Below are positions 28,103-52,327 of a stretch of DNA of 64,000 nt, piece after piece (position 1 is the first letter of the stretch; every line of letters begins with the position of its first letter). The position numbers and the translations under genes were made by a program. The notes under the pieces were generated by a model. It searched no databases and was not told the DNA's origin. It saw only the letters and a program-made list of their open reading frames with translations. Origin of the DNA: Lachnospiraceae bacterium (GTDB lineage: Bacteria; Bacillota; Clostridia; Lachnospirales; Lachnospiraceae); assembly GCA_015056905.1 (NCBI GenBank), contig SVFI01000003.1, positions 62,001 through 126,000 of the forward strand. Direction: 5' to 3'.

Positions 28103-28205
28103 CTGTCCTTTCTCAGTCTGCGGAAGCGCAAATGCGTCCAGCTACCCTGATACGGTCACCAGCTTTTAATGTGCTCACAAAATAGGCGTTTCTGCTCCAT
28201 AAAAT

Positions 28206-28961
28206 GCTCAGCTCAAAAAAGTACTGAGTGATACTAAGTTATGGGGGCATTATAGAGGTAATGACTTCTATTGTACTGGTTATGTAGATAAAGCTACTTT
28301 TGATAAAATACAGGCTATTTTAAAGAATAACAGTAGAAAAAGAGTAAATAGCAGAGTCTATCTGTTTAGTGGTTTAATTATATGCCCTAGTTGTGGTAGA
28401 AAAATGTCAGGTATCACATCAAAAAATAGGAAAACAGTAAAACCTAGTGGCAAGGTGTATATATATGAACATGAGATATATCAATACCGTTGCAATAAAG
28501 CTAAAATGTCTAAGCTCTGCGTCCACACTAAATATTCAAATGAGGGAAAATTAGAAAAAGCCCTGTTAAGCAACCTTAACCGCTTTATTAACAATCATGT
28601 GACACACGTTAAAATAACAGCTAATACTAATAGCCACACTGACGGTGTAAAAAACTCTATAGCAAACTTACAAGCTGAGTTAAGCCGACTTAATACAATG
28701 TTTAGAAAAGGCAGAGTTAAAGAGGAGGAATATGACAGAGAGTATGAGGCACTAGAAAAACAGCTAACAGAGCTACAGGAAACCTTAACACCTGTGGAGG
28801 AAAGAGATTTAAGCATATATGAGGAGTTATTAGCTAAAGATGACTGGAAAGAGCTTTATAACGCTCTGAACAGGGAAAGTAAGAGAGCTTTCTGGCGTAA
28901 GTATATTAAGGCTATAAAGCTAGACGCTGAGGGTAAAATAAATGAGATTATATTTTTTTAA
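28206..28961 (+). pseudogene. Truncated large serine recombinase (C-terminal part only; remnant of integrated element 1)
   Basis: In-frame AQLKKVLSDTKLWGHYRGNDFYCTGYVDKATFDKIQAIL...LFSGLIICPSCGRKMSG...EGKINEIIFF*, closely resembles the C-terminal part of the 48947..50377 recombinase; catalytic N-terminus absent. Confidence 0.9.
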
Positions 28962-28966
28962 TTGTC

Positions 28967-28994
28967 GTGCTACTAACTGTGCCGTACCGTTTTG
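28967..28994. other. Element 1 attachment-site junction (attR-like)
   Basis: GTGCTACT-N12-CCGTTTTG; host ABC ATPase frame reads GFIGQNG then diverges exactly at the Walker A Ala/Gly. Confidence 0.75.
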
Positions 28995-29137
28995 ACCGAT
29001 AAACCCCATGATACTGCCTTTCGGTACCGAAAAGCTGATATCATCCAGCGTAAATCCGTCATATTTTTTTGTAAGATTCCTTATCTCTATTGCGTTTTCG
29101 TATGTAGCTGTGGCACTTACATTCTCACTCATCCTGA
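28987..29137 (-). pseudogene. 5' remnant of ABC transporter ATP-binding gene interrupted at the P-loop
   Basis: MSENVSATATYENAIEIRNLTKKYDGFTLDDISFSVPKGSIMGFIGQNG| then element-derived sequence; no downstream half found nearby. Confidence 0.85.
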
Positions 29138-44859: not shown

Positions 44860-45435
44860 TTTATATCATCCTTCAAAAAAACCATGTAACCAAGCCATAA
44901 GAAAAACAGCCCAAAGACCAGTGACGAACCTATCACACCTACAATTTGGGATACATTCATTGACGCATCATACCGATAGAATAAATATCAGCATCCAGGT
45001 AACTCCAACCTTTATCTCAAGATTTGATCCCCAGCCGTTACAAAAAGATAACACAAGAAGCGGTAATATCAGATAGAGGGCACTGATTCCCAAACACCAT
45101 AGAATCGTCAAAATGACTCGTGCGCCAAACACATGATTTCTGGAATTTCCCGCCAGAATTTCATAATTAATTGTTTTATCGGTCATATCCCAGCCCACAA
45201 TTCTGGCAACCAAAACACAACATAAAACCAAGCATCCCACAACCATAAACTCCGCATTTTTTGCCAGAAATAATCCTGCGCTTATTTCCGAAAATGCCAT
45301 CCCTTCTTCTACTAAAGCTGAGTAAAAGCCGATTCCTATCGCCAGAAAACCACTGAATAATATCGCATATATTGTAAAATTATCTCTTTTTATTTGATAA
45401 TTTAACCCCTTCATCAGATTCCACATTTTGTTCAC
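44860..45435 (-). pseudogene. Degraded ABC transporter permease (frame broken near 44,967)
   Basis: ORF 44968..45435 ends ...TWMLIFILSV* and a TM C-terminus (MNVSQIVGVIGSSLVFGLFFLWLGYMVFLKDDIN*) follows in another frame; far shorter than typical permeases. Confidence 0.6.
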
Positions 45436-46217
45436 CTACCATATCCATATAATATTTTTCAAGATTTGCCTCTACCATATGCAAAGTAACCGGTATTACC
45501 CCTCCATCATATAAAGCCTTTGAAATTTTTGTCACATTCTCAAGGCCCTCATAAAGTCTGATACTTCCATCCTCTTCCACCTCAACCTGACCGGCAAAGC
45601 CTTTCTCCTGTAAAATCACAAGTGCCTTAGCATCATTATCGGTATGAATATGATAATATTCCTTACAAATTCGGCGAAGATTTTCTGCGGAAACCGATTG
45701 TATCAGCTTCCCGTGATGAATGAAAATATAGTCCGTACATAGCAGCGATAATTCTGTCAAAATATGAGAGGAAATCAAAATGGTGATATGCTCTTCCTTA
45801 TTAAGCTTTAATAAAAGATTTCGAATCTCGACGATTCCTTCCGGATCTAAACCGTTAATCGGCTCGTCAAGCACCATGATTTCCGGCTTTGTCATAAGAG
45901 CAATAGCGATTCCCAGTCTTTGTCGCATACCGAGAGAAAAATTCTTTACCACTTTTTTTCCTGTGTCAGAAAGACCCACAATTTCCAGAACTTCCTCCAC
46001 TCTGTTCTTATTTGGAATCCCTTTCATAATCCGGAGTTTTTCCAAATTTTCCCTGGCAGTTAAATTCTCTTTTGCATAGGGTGTTTCTATCATAAAGCTC
46101 ATGCGGCTTCTCGCACCCGCCAGTCCTTCTTCCGACGTCTCCCCATAGATGGAGATTTCTCCATCGGTCGGGAGCACAAGACCGCCTAATATTTTCATAA
46201 TCGTGGTCTTCCCTGCC
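45380..46217 (-). pseudogene. 3' part of BcrA-type ABC transporter ATP-binding gene split by element 2
   Basis: NGAGKTTIMKILGGLVLPTDGEISIYGE...LSLGMRQ-like NFSLGMRQRLGIAIALMTKPEIMVLDEPINGLDPEG; 5' part found at 50403-50524. Confidence 0.92.
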
Positions 46218-46267
46218 CCGTTCGGCACACATATAAAAGTAGCACAACTAAAAAGGGGCTGGAACCG

Positions 46268-46405
46268 TTGAAAAATAAGGACATTGATAGACTAATAAGA
46301 TTATGTATAAAAGGCTGGATAACTTATGAGGAGCTTATAAAGCGTTTAGATGAGATAGAGAAAAAAGATAACCCTGAATTACCTGAGCCACCTAGAGTAT
46401 ACTAA
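46268..46405 (+). CDS. Small element-encoded protein (45 aa)
   Basis: TTG start after AAAGGGG; KNKDIDRLIRLCIKGWITYEELIKRLDEIEKKDNPELPEPPRVY*. Confidence 0.5.
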   Translation: MKNKDIDRLIRLCIKGWITYEELIKRLDEIEKKDNPELPEPPRVY

Positions 46406-46442
46406 AAAATTAGACGGTCAGTTATTGACCGTCTTTTTATTT

Positions 46443-46607
46443 TTATGCTAATGTGATCTGTCCTAACTCATTTACTATTTTTCTTGCCTCTGCCTTAGTT
46501 CTTGTCTCTGCTACTTTTTCGTATTTCTTAAATTCCTCATTTGTTAAAGGTGCTAAACAGTACATTTTTACTTTTCCGCTTATGATTGCATATACTCCAT
46601 ATTTCAT
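46443..46607 (-). CDS. Small element-encoded protein
   Basis: MKYGVYAIISGKVKMYCLAPLTNEEFKKYEKVAETRTKAEARKIVNELGQITLA*, AGGAGG upstream. Confidence 0.55.
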   Translation of the reverse strand: MKYGVYAIISGKVKMYCLAPLTNEEFKKYEKVAETRTKAEARKIVNELGQITLA

Positions 46608-46657
46608 ATCTTTTACCTCCTGTAGTGGCTCTGTGTTATTTGTTAATATCATTATAG

Positions 46658-46741
46658 TATATTGCTTGCAATATATCAATATACAGAATAACCAAAGTTT
46701 TACAATTATCTTTGTCCATTTTGTATATTGCTAACAATATA
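46658..46741. promoter_or_regulatory. Twin palindromic operators in a divergent promoter region
   Basis: TATATTGC-TT-GCAATATA (46658-46675) and GTATATTG-CTAA-CAATATAC (46723-46742). Confidence 0.7.
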
Positions 46742-46797
46742 CATTTATGCTATTATAATATTGTAACAAGGGAACAGCAAAGAAAGGAGTTAACAGA

Positions 46798-46953
46798 ATG
46801 GAAGATGACAAAATGGTTTTTAAAAGTTACTTAAGAGGATTATTAAGAGATTTAAAGCGTTTAAAGAAAGCGTTAAAAGAAAAGAATTATGAGGAAGTGG
46901 ATAAAATAATAGATAACCTCATAGATGATACTCAAAAGGGTATTGAAGATTAA
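46798..46953 (+). CDS. Small element-encoded protein (51 aa)
   Basis: AAAGGAG RBS, MEDDKMVFKSYLRGLLRDLKRLKKALKEKNYEEVDKIIDNLIDDTQKGIED*. Confidence 0.55.
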   Translation: MEDDKMVFKSYLRGLLRDLKRLKKALKEKNYEEVDKIIDNLIDDTQKGIED

Positions 46954-47076
46954 AACTAAATAGGACTAAACACTAGGGCGGTGAGTTTCGGTTAACTTCT
47001 TTCTTGCCACCGCCCCAGTAATTATAAAAATAATAGCAAGAAAGAAAATAAATGTCAATATTTAGGAGGTGTATAC

Positions 47077-47262
47077 ATGGGAGCTAAATACACAAAGGCT
47101 CAGAATAAAGCCACTCAGAAGTACATTAAAAACACCTATGATACTGTCACTACCAGAGTACCTAAAGGTATGAGAGACGTGTATAAAGCACACGCTGAAA
47201 GTAAAGGTACTAGCCTAAATAAACTGATCATAGACCTACTTAATAAGGATATGGAGGGCTAA
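47077..47262 (+). CDS. Small ribbon-helix-helix (Arc-like) protein
   Basis: RVPKGMRDVYKAHAESKGTSLNKLIIDLLNKDMEG; AGGAGG upstream. Confidence 0.65.
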   Translation: MGAKYTKAQNKATQKYIKNTYDTVTTRVPKGMRDVYKAHAESKGTSLNKLIIDLLNKDMEG

Positions 47263-47286
47263 AAATGACCGATAACGATAAAGACA

Positions 47287-47928
47287 CTACTCCACACTAT
47301 ACACTGTCAACCATGAAAAAGCTGAGGAGTATACACCACCTCCAGCATAACCTAATAAGTTTTTACTCTGTCTGTAAATATCCAGTCTGCTAAGTTGTTT
47401 AGGACTGTTAATAGTCTGATAGAAATTATTGACTACTCCACCGCCTACAGTTCCGCTACCACCTATAGTAGCTGTGGCTGTTCCTAAGCCAGCTCTGGCA
47501 CTTCCTACCGTGTCAATAGCTAAATCTTTTAAGGTATTAAATAACCCTTTAGTATTATCTTTAACACCTACAGCTATACCCTCTGGTAACCACTTACCGA
47601 CCTCATTAGCCATGAGCTTAGACGGTGAGCCGATTTCAAAGAATTTTTTAAGCCACTCTGTAACATCACCTACAAAACCTTTAATCTTATCTTTAAGCCA
47701 CTGTACTTTATTGTTAATACCGTTGTACAGACCCGTTACAATGTCAGAGCCGATAGACTTAATTTTACCTGTGATTTCTCCGACTTTTTCTACTACAGCG
47801 TCATAGAGTTTTTTTGCTGACTCTTTACCTTTTTTAGCTAAATTTGCGCCCCAGTCACCTACTTTATTGACCACTTTTTTAAGCCAGTCAGCCACTTTCT
47901 GAGGTAACTGTTTGACATATGCTCTCAC
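47287..47928 (-). pseudogene. C-terminal fragment of phage tail tape-measure protein
   Basis: IGSDIVTGLYNGINNKVQWLKDKIKGFVGDVTEWLKKFFEIGSPSKLMANEVGKWLPEGIAVGV. Confidence 0.85.
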
Positions 47929-47976
47929 CTGTCGGCTGTGTTCCTATCACTTCCATAATAGTTACCTCTTACAAAG

Positions 47977-48192
47977 TCAAGAAATCTGTACTTTTTGATT
48001 AAAAAAATATAAGTGTATTTCTGTCATGGGAATACCCAAAAGGTCGCACGCCTTAGCCATTTCTTCTGGTTTCCACTGTGTAATACCGCTTAAACGCTGT
48101 CCTACAGCACTCTCGCTCATCTCCATCGCCTCAGCAAAAGCCTTTTGTGTGTTATACACTTCCTTAATTTTGCCCTTTAACTTTGCATACAT
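47977..48192 (-). CDS. Cro-like HTH regulator
   Basis: MYAKLKGKIKEVYNTQKAFAEAMEMSESAVGQRLSGITQWKPEEMAKACDLLGIPMTEIHLYFF. Confidence 0.8.
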   Translation of the reverse strand: MYAKLKGKIKEVYNTQKAFAEAMEMSESAVGQRLSGITQWKPEEMAKACDLLGIPMTEIHLYFFNQKVQIS

Positions 48193-48207
48193 ATCATCAC
48201 CTCCTCT

Positions 48208-48225
48208 GGTACAGTTTTCTGTACC
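48208..48225. promoter_or_regulatory. Operator palindrome of the element's regulatory switch
   Basis: GGTACAG-TTTT-CTGTACC. Confidence 0.6.
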
Positions 48226-48370
48226 CCACAAGCCTTATTATACTGATATAATTTTAAATGTCAACACCAAAATACAGAAATTCTATATTTTTTTTATAAA
48301 TCGTACATTATTTGTTGTATTTTCTGTACTTTTACCATATAATGATAATACACAGACAGGAGGTGAAAAT

Positions 48371-48757
48371 ATGAGTGATTACAAAAGAAATAATAGAATA
48401 GCCGAAGCGTTAGCTATGAAAGGGTGGAAACAGGTAGACCTTGTAGAGCGTACAGGCATAAAAAAGAGTTCTATTAACGGCTGGGTAAAACAAAACTGGC
48501 AACCTAAACAAAAGGCTTTAATGGATATGGCTAGAGTTTTAGGGGTATCTGAAATGTGGCTGGCTGGTTATGACGTACCTATGGAGCGTCCACAAGCTCA
48601 AATAAAAAATGATGAGCTGGTTAAGCTCATCATGGAGTTAAAAGATAATGAAGAATTACGTAATTTATGTATGTCTATAAGTCATCTAACAGATGATCAA
48701 CGTAAAACTATAGGGAGCATGGTTACTGAGCTGAGCAAACTTAACACTCTGCACTAA
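48371..48757 (+). CDS. CI-like XRE-family repressor
   Basis: MSDYKRNNRIAEALAMKGWKQVDLVERTGIKKSSINGWVKQNWQPKQKALMDMARVLGVSEMWLAGYDVPM. Confidence 0.85.
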   Translation: MSDYKRNNRIAEALAMKGWKQVDLVERTGIKKSSINGWVKQNWQPKQKALMDMARVLGVSEMWLAGYDVPMERPQAQIKNDELVKLIMELKDNEELRNLCMSISHLTDDQRKTIGSMVTELSKLNTLH

Positions 48758-48946
48758 GTAAGCCTTGTATGAGGTATAGTAATTCTATATCTGTACAGTT
48801 AGTTAATAATTCTTTGATTGTTTCAATTACAAAATCTCTTTCCATAGCTACACCCCATCAATCGAACAAATGTTTGTTTTTTTACAAATTTTATATTACT
48901 ATAATTTTTCCAAAAATTCAATAGTAATTTTATGGAGGGCTCAGGT

Positions 48947-50377
48947 ATGTCACCAAAAAATAAAAAAATAGAAAGAATAGCTTGTTATGTGCGTGTATCT
49001 TCACAAGAGCAAAAGTTACACGGTCTATCTTTAGACGCTCAGCGTGACACACTCAGACGCTACGCTGAGGAGCACGGTTTAAATATAATAGAATGGTATG
49101 AGGATGAGGGAATAAGTGGACGAAAGTTAATCAGACGTAGACCAGCTTTACAGCGTATGCTTAATGACGCTAAAGCTGGCAAGTTTGACCGTATCATATT
49201 TATTAAGCTAGACCGTTATTTTAGGTCTGTAGCTGAGTATTATGAGTGTCAGAAAGTATTAGAGGCTAATAAAGTGACGTGGACGGCTACAGAGGAAAAA
49301 TATGACCTCACCACCGCTAACGGTCGCTACTGGGTGACGCAAAAATTAGCTATGGCTGAATATGAGGCAGATCAGACAGGGGAGCGTATTGACTTAGTGA
49401 ATGAGTATAAAGTCCGTACAGGTCAGCCACTTACAGGAGCGCAGAGTCAGGGCTTAGCCTTTACGGTAGGTAGAGACGAAAAAACGGGCTTAAAAAACGT
49501 CATCCCTGACCCAGAGACTAAAGAGCTTATAACTGATTTTATCAATTACTTTTTAGTACACCAGTCTGTAAAAGGTAGCGTGGTTTATGTCAATAATAAA
49601 TATGGTACTAAACATGAGTACGCCCAGCTTAGAAAAGTGTTAACTGATACTAAATTATGGGGGCACTACAGAGGAAATGACTTTTACTGTAAAGGTTATG
49701 TGGATAAAGCCACTTTTGATAAAATACAGGCTATTTTAGATAGTAACGTAAAACGCCCTAAAACCAATAGAGTGTATCTATTTACTGGTCTACTCTCCTG
49801 TCCTTGCTGTGGTAGAAAAATGACAGGTATAAGCTCTGCTAATCGTGTAAATAGAAAGCCTAATGGTAAAGTATACACTTATACCAATGTGATTTATCAA
49901 TACCGCTGTAATAAGGCTAAAATGTCTAAGCTTTGCACCTTTAGAAAATACCCTAATGAGGCACACTTAGAAAAAGCCATGTTAAACAACCTTAACCGTT
50001 TTATTAACAACCATATAACACACGTTAAAATAACAGCTAACACTAACACCCACACTGACGGTGTTAAAAACTCTATAGCTAACTTACACTCTGAAATGAA
50101 TAGATTAAACACTATGTTTAGAAAAGGTAGAGTTAAAGAGGAGGAGTATGATAGAGAGTATGAGGAGTTGGAAAGACAGCTGGCAGAGTTACAGGAGAGC
50201 TTAACACCTGTGGAGGAAAGAGATTTAAGCATATATGAGGAGCTACTGGCTAAAGATGACTGGAAAGAGTTATATAACGCTCTTAATAAAGAGAATAAAA
50301 GAGCGTTCTGGCGTAAGTATGTAAAGGCTATAAAGCTAGATACAGAGGGCAAACTGGATGAGATAATATTTTTTTGA
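48947..50377 (+). CDS. Large serine recombinase / integrase
   Basis: IACYVRVSSQEQKLHGLSLDAQRDTLRRYAEEHGL (resolvase catalytic domain), LSCPCCGRKMTG zinc ribbon, coiled-coil C-terminus; stop 25 bp from the junction core. Confidence 0.95.
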   Translation: MSPKNKKIERIACYVRVSSQEQKLHGLSLDAQRDTLRRYAEEHGLNIIEWYEDEGISGRKLIRRRPALQRMLNDAKAGKFDRIIFIKLDRYFRSVAEYYECQKVLEANKVTWTATEEKYDLTTANGRYWVTQKLAMAEYEADQTGERIDLVNEYKVRTGQPLTGAQSQGLAFTVGRDEKTGLKNVIPDPETKELITDFINYFLVHQSVKGSVVYVNNKYGTKHEYAQLRKVLTDTKLWGHYRGNDFYCKGYVDKATFDKIQAILDSNVKRPKTNRVYLFTGLLSCPCCGRKMTGISSANRVNRKPNGKVYTYTNVIYQYRCNKAKMSKLCTFRKYPNEAHLEKAMLNNLNRFINNHITHVKITANTNTHTDGVKNSIANLHSEMNRLNTMFRKGRVKEEEYDREYEELERQLAELQESLTPVEERDLSIYEELLAKDDWKELYNALNKENKRAFWRKYVKAIKLDTEGKLDEIIFF

Positions 50378-50402
50378 GCGGTGTGCTACTAACATAGTCG
50401 CA

Positions 50403-50524
50403 CCGTTCGGTCCAATCAAGCCCACAATTTGACCTTCTTTTATTTGAAAGTCCGCATCGTTTACCACCTTATGGTCCATATATTGCTTGGTAATCCCCTT
50501 TGCTTCGATAATTACATTGCTCAT
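50403..50524 (-). pseudogene. 5' part of ABC transporter ATP-binding gene split by element 2
   Basis: MSNVIIEAKGITKQYMDHKVVNDADFQIKEGQIVGLIGPNG| continuous with 46217 downward after excision. Confidence 0.92.
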
Positions 50525-50623
50525 AATCTCCTCCAAAGTATCTGTTTTCTTTCAGCTTCTATTTCAGAATAAAAAAGAAACTTAAAGAATTTCTTAATTT
50601 TCTTAAATTCTTTAAATTTCTTT

Positions 50624-51526
50624 TTAAAATCTTATTCCTATGCATAAGCTGCTTTCTTCTTTTCTTGCAAACACTTCCGCCTCCTGTTTCATGGCAAGTA
50701 GTTTTACAATATAAAGTCCCAAGCCGGTCCCCTGGTTACTGCGAGCCTCCTCCCCCCGATATGTTCTGTCAAAAAGCCTGGTTTCATCCACCACCTGTCC
50801 CGGCATAAGCCGATTTTTAAAGGATAATTCGCAAATTCTACCATCTTTTTCTATTTCTACCAATGAAATTTCAAAGCTATCCTTTGCATATCTAAACACA
50901 TTGGTCAAAAGATTTCCAAGCATACGAAGAAGCAGGTCTTCATTTCCATCTACCATAATACTTTTGTCCGGAATATGAATCACCGGTTGTAAATTAGAGT
51001 TTTTGATTACCGCCTCATGGTCCACGACAAACTGTATGAGAAGCGCTGTTAAATCAAGTTTGGAACAAACCGCCCTGCTTTTATCACTTTCCAGCATCGC
51101 TAACTCAAAAAATTCATCCATCATTTGTTTGAGACTTTCGGTTTTTTGAAGTCCGGTTTCCAAATAGCTTTGCTGTTTCTCGGTTAGATTTCCTTCCTGC
51201 TGCAGCATTTGGAGATTTCCTTTTACAACAGTTAACGGCGTTCGAAGATCATGCGCGATATCCGATACGGACTGCTTCCACTTTTCCTCTTCCTTCATTA
51301 TGCGAAGCTTCATTTCCTTTTGATAATCCAGATTTTCATTCATTTCCGATGCCAAATCCGTCAAATCTTTATCAAATAACGAAATGGTGAGCTGTCGATT
51401 GTAAGACATTTCCTTTGTTTTTTCCAGTTCTTCCCTGCAATTTCTGATTTCTCGTTTTAACGCATGAAGATACATAAAAAGAGCCATACAAAGAAGAAGT
51501 AAAACTACACTAATTGCCATCCACAT
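50624..51526 (-). CDS. Sensor histidine kinase
   Basis: VSDIAHDLRTPLTVVKGNLQML H-box, GNLLTNVFRYAKD N-box, GTGLGLYIVK G-box. Confidence 0.93.
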   Translation of the reverse strand: MWMAISVVLLLLCMALFMYLHALKREIRNCREELEKTKEMSYNRQLTISLFDKDLTDLASEMNENLDYQKEMKLRIMKEEEKWKQSVSDIAHDLRTPLTVVKGNLQMLQQEGNLTEKQQSYLETGLQKTESLKQMMDEFFELAMLESDKSRAVCSKLDLTALLIQFVVDHEAVIKNSNLQPVIHIPDKSIMVDGNEDLLLRMLGNLLTNVFRYAKDSFEISLVEIEKDGRICELSFKNRLMPGQVVDETRLFDRTYRGEEARSNQGTGLGLYIVKLLAMKQEAEVFARKEESSLCIGIRF

Positions 51527-52235
51527 AAGGCTCCTCCTGTTTCTTCAATCGGTATCCGATTCCCCAAACGGTTTCAATATAATCCTTCCCGGTTGCTTTT
51601 TTTAGCTTGCTGCGAAGATTGCTCATATGCACATTGATGGTGTTATCCTCATAATAATAGATATCGTTCCACACGGATTCGTAGAGATTGGCTTTGGTAA
51701 AGGTTTTGTCCGGCTGTTCCAAAAACAACTGAAGCAGTTTTAATTCCTTAGCTGTCAGCGCAAGTACTGTCCCTTCATATGTCGCCCGGTTCTTCTCCGG
51801 AAAAAGCATCAACTGCCCCTCTTGTATGCATTCGTTCTCTGCTGTTTTGCTTGCGTTTTCCGTAGGCACTTTCGCTCTGCGCATCACAACCTCAATCCGC
51901 ACAAGTACCTCATCAAGGTCAAACGGTTTTAAGATATAATCATCCGCTCCCATGCGAAGCACCTCAAGGCGGGTTTCTACCTGCGACTTTGCAGACAAAC
52001 AAATAACCGGGGTATTTGAATGCTCCCGTAACTCTTTGATCAGCACATCTCCGCTCTTGTATGGGAGCATCAAATCCATAAGCACAATTGCATATGTATT
52101 TTGTTTTAATAATTCCGATGCTTTCTTTCCGTCATATGCGCATTCCACTTCATAGTCATGTGTCATCAGAAAATCTGCAAGCATCTGACTGATTTCTTTA
52201 TAATCTTCTACAACTAAAATACGACCTTTGCTCAT
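51510..52235 (-). CDS. OmpR/PhoB-family response regulator
   Basis: ILVVEDYKEISQMLADFL, YAIVLMDLMLPYKSGDVL, winged-helix C-terminus. Confidence 0.94.
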   Translation of the reverse strand: MSKGRILVVEDYKEISQMLADFLMTHDYEVECAYDGKKASELLKQNTYAIVLMDLMLPYKSGDVLIKELREHSNTPVICLSAKSQVETRLEVLRMGADDYILKPFDLDEVLVRIEVVMRRAKVPTENASKTAENECIQEGQLMLFPEKNRATYEGTVLALTAKELKLLQLFLEQPDKTFTKANLYESVWNDIYYYEDNTINVHMSNLRSKLKKATGKDYIETVWGIGYRLKKQEEPYVDGN

Positions 52236-52327
52236 GATTTCTCTCACCCTCGCACTGCCATCCACTATCTCTTCATCACACTATCTGCCCCCTATACACT
52301 TTGGGTACAGATGATATATTCATATCG

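Follow-up and report, generated by a model that had tools for sequence, protein, structure and literature searches.

Genes and features of the locus

The 64-kb window (the whole stretch of DNA analysed here) carries the remains of two related integrated elements, each interrupting a gene for an ABC-transporter ATPase (Table 1). Element 2 (46,218-50,410) is a decayed prophage. It is a remnant, with its integrase frame and both att halves intact, and could probably not move by itself. A comparison of the DNA of element 2 with a phage collection gave no match. Element 1 is represented by its right end, including the C-terminal part of an integrase closely similar to that of element 2.

Table 1. 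Features of the two elements and of the genes they interrupt, in window coordinates.
Feature	Position	Strand	Basis or location
Element 1 integrase remnant, C-terminal 253 aa, 79% identical	28200..28958	+	Sequence comparison
Element 1 right arm GTGCTACT; GTGCTACTAAC identical to element 2	28967..28974	+	Sequence comparison
Element 1 core CCGTT at QNG codons of another ABC ATPase	28987..28991		Sequence; uninterrupted congener genes
N-terminal part of ABC ATPase broken by element 1, up to GFIGQNG	28992..29137	-	Uninterrupted GFIGQNGAGKST gene in G001, G002, G003
C-terminal part of ABC ATPase broken by element 2, Walker A onward	45380..46228	-	ABC_tran PF00005 from profile position 19; G002 gene
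attL core CCGTTCGG, complement encodes Walker A P-N-G	46218..46225		Direct repeat; uninterrupted gene in congener G002
Left attP arm AGTAGCACA (other P half-site, positions 16-24)	46238..46246	+	Joined-end comparison
Element 2 interior, decayed prophage	46246..50382		ORFs, Pfam, phrog matches
Arc-like protein	47077-47262	+	Element 2 interior
Tape-measure fragment (C-terminal)	47287-47928	-	Element 2 interior
DUF739-type regulator	47977-48231	-	Element 2 interior
HTH regulator	48371-48757	+	Element 2 interior
Large serine recombinase (integrase), 481 aa	48932..50377	+	PF00239, PF13408, phrog_95, predicted fold
Right attP arm TGTGCTACT (zinc-domain motif, P half-site positions 24-16)	50382..50390	+	Inverted repeat of 46238-46246; block common to six other attPs
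attR core CCGTTCGG, central dinucleotide TT at 50406-50407	50403..50410		8-bp direct repeat of 46218-46225
N-terminal part of same ABC ATPase (element 2), up to ...VGLIG	50411..50536	-	Uninterrupted frame on joining flanks

Judged by its sequence and predicted fold, the 481-amino-acid product of the integrase gene of element 2 is a large serine recombinase (LSR). It matches Resolvase (PF00239, E 9.5e-30) and Zn_ribbon_recom (PF13408, E 2.6e-10) in Pfam, and over its length it matches integrase family phrog_95 (1.4e-93). The serine nucleophile motif RVSSQEQ is present within an N-terminal resolvase catalytic domain. The Recombinase domain PF07508 falls under the cut-off in this protein (E 0.11) and is over the cut-off in two of its relatives, L005 and L035. 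DUF4368 has no Pfam match in the protein; this domain is common in the multi-targeting LSR clade described in excerpts of Durrant et al. 2022 (PMC10083194).

The full-length structural model is of low confidence (pLDDT 63). Its best fold matches are LSR-DNA complexes, including those of Bxb1, phiC31 and the Listeria innocua prophage LI (PDB 4kis); the match to 4kis has ~17% sequence identity. Like the LI/A118 integrase, it appears to combine a catalytic domain, a recombinase region, a zinc ribbon and a coiled coil; the same low-confidence model places the coiled coil as an insertion in a zinc beta-ribbon, with long helices at residues 343-397 and 403-422. A second serine recombinase is encoded elsewhere in the same genome (L003, G000:C17:1158-2285), and it is a distant one, with 31% identity over the N-terminal part.

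A symmetric attachment site at the joined ends of element 2

A scripted join of the two ends of element 2 reads TGTGCTACT-N12-CCGTTCGG-N12-AGTAGCACA, or in full TGTGCTACT AACATAGTCGCA CCGTTCGG CACACATATAAA AGTAGCACA. At the right end, GTGCTACT (50,383-50,390) is followed after 12 bp by CCGTTCGG (50,403-50,410), while at the left end CCGTTCGG (46,218-46,225) is followed after 12 bp by AGTAGCAC (46,238-46,245). An earlier, sequence-only reading of the window had placed the arms, spacers and core at these same coordinates, and all of them were confirmed. It had also described the arms as exact inverted repeats of 8 bp, equally spaced from the core. The exactness and the equal spacing hold, but the length must be corrected to 9 bp, because the joined ends match exactly over TGTGCTACT/AGTAGCACA. 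Counted from the TT/AA dyad as zero, both arms occupy positions 16-24. The core between them is the 8-bp CCGTTCGG, its central TT is non-palindromic, and the corresponding empty site is found in a congener.

Within the window, GTGCTACT occurs at only two places, the right end of element 2 and element 1, and AGTAGCAC occurs at the left end of element 2 only. Among random flank pairs drawn from the window, an in-register exact match of at least 9 bp at positions 4-29 has a probability of 8.3e-5, and one of at least 8 bp a probability of 3.6e-4 with random flanks. A 9/9 match at positions 16-24 about a random centre has a probability of 2.7e-5.

The crystal structure of the LI (A118-type) integrase with its attP revealed a pseudo-palindromic site in which a 9-bp zinc-domain (ZD) motif occupies positions 16-24 of each half-site (PMC3783163). 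That the element 2 arms coincide with this motif carries more weight than their length. The joined site of element 2 resembles that of the LI/A118 prophage in being a pseudo-palindrome of ~50 bp with a central dinucleotide and a 9-bp ZD motif at positions 16-24 in both halves. The two sites differ in the inward-read arm, which is TGTGCTACT here and TTTAGTATC in LI, and in their target genes. Positions 4-15 of the element 2 site, corresponding to the recombinase-domain region, are symmetric at only 4/12. In an LSR attB the ZD motif is expected to be closer to the centre by ~5 bp; here, a shift of -5 ties with -8 as the best among 30 offsets.

The proposal that the joined ends have the architecture of a large-serine-integrase attP is therefore well supported by sequence comparison: the arms fall on the zinc-domain positions of LI, the element encodes a full-length LSR, six comparable attPs are available, and congeners carry the target genes without an insertion (see below). 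The protein contacts and the recombination itself are predicted from these similarities.

The site at the right end of element 1

Element 1 carries the same arm and spacing that the earlier reading had reported, with GTGCTACT at 28,967-28,974 followed after 12 bp by the core, which starts at 28,987. An 11-bp segment, GTGCTACTAAC, is the same in both elements, while the sequences outside the arm are different in element 1. Comparison of the two elements had been used to narrow the shared core to CCGTT, which stands as a fair inference and not as a measurement, since element 1 contributes its right end only. For the same reason, neither a full attP nor a core of its own can be rebuilt for element 1. 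A third copy of GTGCTACTAAC in the genome, on contig C6, was considered as an att site and rejected as a chance occurrence; it lies inside an unrelated coding gene.

Element 1 has lost its left end, and its target ABC ATPase has lost the C-terminal half (28103-28220). Because the junction joins sequence beside a membrane-protein gene, the deletion seems to have removed host DNA as well.

Comparison with attP sites of related integrases

In the strongest test of the proposal, the site was compared with the attPs of MT835521, Ruminococcus phage RG-TP1 (PQ571303), MT836489, Clostridioides phage phiCD27 (EU719189) and the loci L010 and L035, whose integrases are 33-47% identical to that of element 2. 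L010 is the closest relative (46-47%), and L035 is 45% identical. A search of genome contigs for relatives with the single protein gave no match, and a search with alignment A1 yielded L034-L036, of which L034 is apparently the same locus as L010. The integrase ends of L011, L013, L026 and L029 could not be interpreted.

In all six phages and prophages, the integrase gene is closely followed by a complete attP. When the sites are aligned on their dyads, symmetry at positions 16-24 is 9/9 in L010, L006, L008 and the window, 7/9 in L035 and L007, and 6/9 in L005. In all seven attPs the symmetric block lies at an equal distance from a core flanked by CC/GG, and the position-wise symmetry is 0.71-1.00 at positions 16-24 and mostly lower at positions 4-13. 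Alignment of the attP ends of homologous elements, which had been suggested as a check, thus recovers the same dyad, spacing and 16-24 block at six sites. The arms themselves differ in sequence when read outward (TTAGTACAA, TTACTACAT, TTAGTCCAA and AGTAGCACA), and therefore it is the architecture, not the sequence, that is conserved. The same half-site with the same spacing is also seen in the integrated relatives L014-L017 and L028.

Two phages illustrate this pattern. The integrase of phiCD27 is 33.5% identical to that of element 2, and its attP, located directly downstream, has 12/12 symmetric arms around a CCACTTGG core with the spacing of element 2, but with TTTGGACTAA as the arm. RG-TP1 has an integrase 35% identical and an attP that is 9/9 symmetric at positions 16-24.

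Insertion at Walker A codons of ABC-transporter ATPases

On the complementary strand, the core of element 2 reads CC-G-AA-C-GG within GTG GGC TTG ATT GGA CCG AAC GGG GCA GGG AAG ACC ACG. The translation of this region, V-G-L-I-G-P-N-G-A-G-K-T-T, contains the Walker A motif (GPNGAGKTT) of an ABC-transporter ATPase. Joining the flanks of element 2 restores an uninterrupted frame through GLIGPNGAGKTT, and the congener G002 has an uninterrupted gene of 97% identity that matches at 77/86 bases in the attB region. The target of element 1 is a second ABC ATPase gene, adjoining a gene for a GntR-like regulator, and in three congeners (G001, G002 and G003) it is uninterrupted and reads GQNGAGKST. In both targets, the central dinucleotide corresponds to bases 1-2 of the Asn codon.

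Similar codons are found in the attP dyads of L005 and L010 (CCGAACGGCGCAGG and GGCCCGAATGGCGC, respectively), which read P-N-G-A in opposite orientation. Relatives with 31-38% identity have other targets, in most cases conserved motifs of transport genes. These comprise three places in genes for NMT1/THI5-like ABC binding proteins (L014, L015 and L033 at the first, L016 and L018 at the second, and L019, L021-L025 and L027 at the third), FeoB at HTGN (L012, L031 and L032), an ABC ATPase at DEPTG (L028) and a collagen-like repeat gene (L020). FeoB_N, NMT1 and ABC_tran were confirmed by Pfam in the target examples tested; the L019 fragment had no Pfam match and was assigned by its likeness to the L014 protein.

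The CCATTTGG cores of RG-TP1 (L006) and MT836489 (L007) were also considered as Walker A sequences and rejected, as L014 and L015 have the same core at P-F-G codons of an ABC binding-protein gene. By this comparison, the RG-TP1 core probably corresponds to P-F-G of an ABC substrate-binding protein gene. A P-N-G-like core alone consequently does not prove a Walker A target.

The attP of element 2 is of a known kind, and the ABC-transporter codon target is the less ordinary part. Excerpts of Durrant et al. 2022 (PMC10083194) describe LSR attP/attB pairs located inside coding genes and some families that enter several genes; no ABC Walker A target was found in the LSR sets as they appear in those excerpts. 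Among the papers searched there was no direct report of Walker A motifs or ABC genes as LSR targets, an absence that is weak evidence.

Proposed mechanism and alternatives

We consider it very probable that the joined ends represent the attP of a temperate phage and that a large serine integrase recombines this site with a Walker A attB. The integrase gene lies upstream of the right arm, 4 bp away from it. A dimer of the enzyme would bind attP, the zinc domain of each subunit occupying one of the 9-bp arms (positions 16-24) and the recombinase domain lying closer to the core. The DNA would be cut at the central TT/AA, and strands would be exchanged with an attB whose sequence (CC-G-AA-C-GG, P-N-G) is that of Walker A codons in genes for ABC-transporter ATPases. 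In this reading, two related phages integrated by such attB sites into different ABC ATPase genes of the genome, and their later decay left a remnant of 4.2 kb and a stub of a right end.

Because short inverted repeats are common, the arms could in principle be a chance repeat, or they could be the two parts of a palindrome with another role beside the integrase gene, for example a terminator or a regulator site. The null probability is ~1e-4 for one site, but the same symmetric block lies at the same distance from the core beside six diverged integrases whose arm sequences differ. Moreover, the arms of element 2 sit at opposite ends of the integrated element and pair only on joining, and the arm is preserved exactly in element 1 between flanks that are different, so that we regard a fortuitous repeat or an unrelated palindrome as very unlikely. 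Still harder to credit is a tyrosine integrase site or transposon-type end at which the serine recombinase gene is incidental, a reading for which no specific support emerged. Among the ORFs of the element, the tested ones compared by Pfam and phrog, no tyrosine recombinase or DDE transposase was found, and the site lies 4 bp past the serine integrase gene, with relatives also carrying theirs just downstream. The usual core of a tyrosine integrase is long, and an 8-bp core within a coding motif is atypical of such enzymes.

A different alternative accepts the attP and competes only with the target part of the explanation. The same site might be used by an integrase of relaxed, multi-site specificity, like the multi-targeting LSRs in the excerpts of Durrant et al.; it would then be a coincidence that both insertions lie in ABC genes. 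Two insertions in two different genes of one genome are compatible with relaxed specificity, as are the other genes used by diverged relatives, and ABC genes are numerous targets, as the genome has 56 ABC_tran matches. However, both insertions in the window are at the same codon of the same motif, and two close relatives, one 47% and the other 38-40% identical, have attP cores that encode P-N-G-A codons. Coincidence of this kind thus seems improbable, if less so than the alternatives that dispute the attP itself.

Beyond recombination of this attP with a Walker A attB, we tentatively suggest, at somewhat less than even odds, that this integrase branch evolved to read the most conserved codons of ABC ATPases (P-N-G of Walker A, or DEPTG in a relative). 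Such a branch would find more than one place to integrate in each genome, and in different species, with an attP frame that stayed fixed and only the arm sequence varying. The sites assembled here form a natural att-site set for one serine-integrase family, which should be useful for understanding how the zinc domain chooses DNA. They also suggest that phages integrate at codons for highly conserved motifs of proteins. Integrases with this habit could be portable as tools, or could disrupt transporter genes widely.

Adjoining the ABC ATPase gene interrupted by element 2, at 50624-52265, are a gene whose congener counterpart resembles a sensor histidine kinase and then another gene. Because of these neighbors, the transporter broken by element 2 may be part of a regulated operon for peptide sensing or export.
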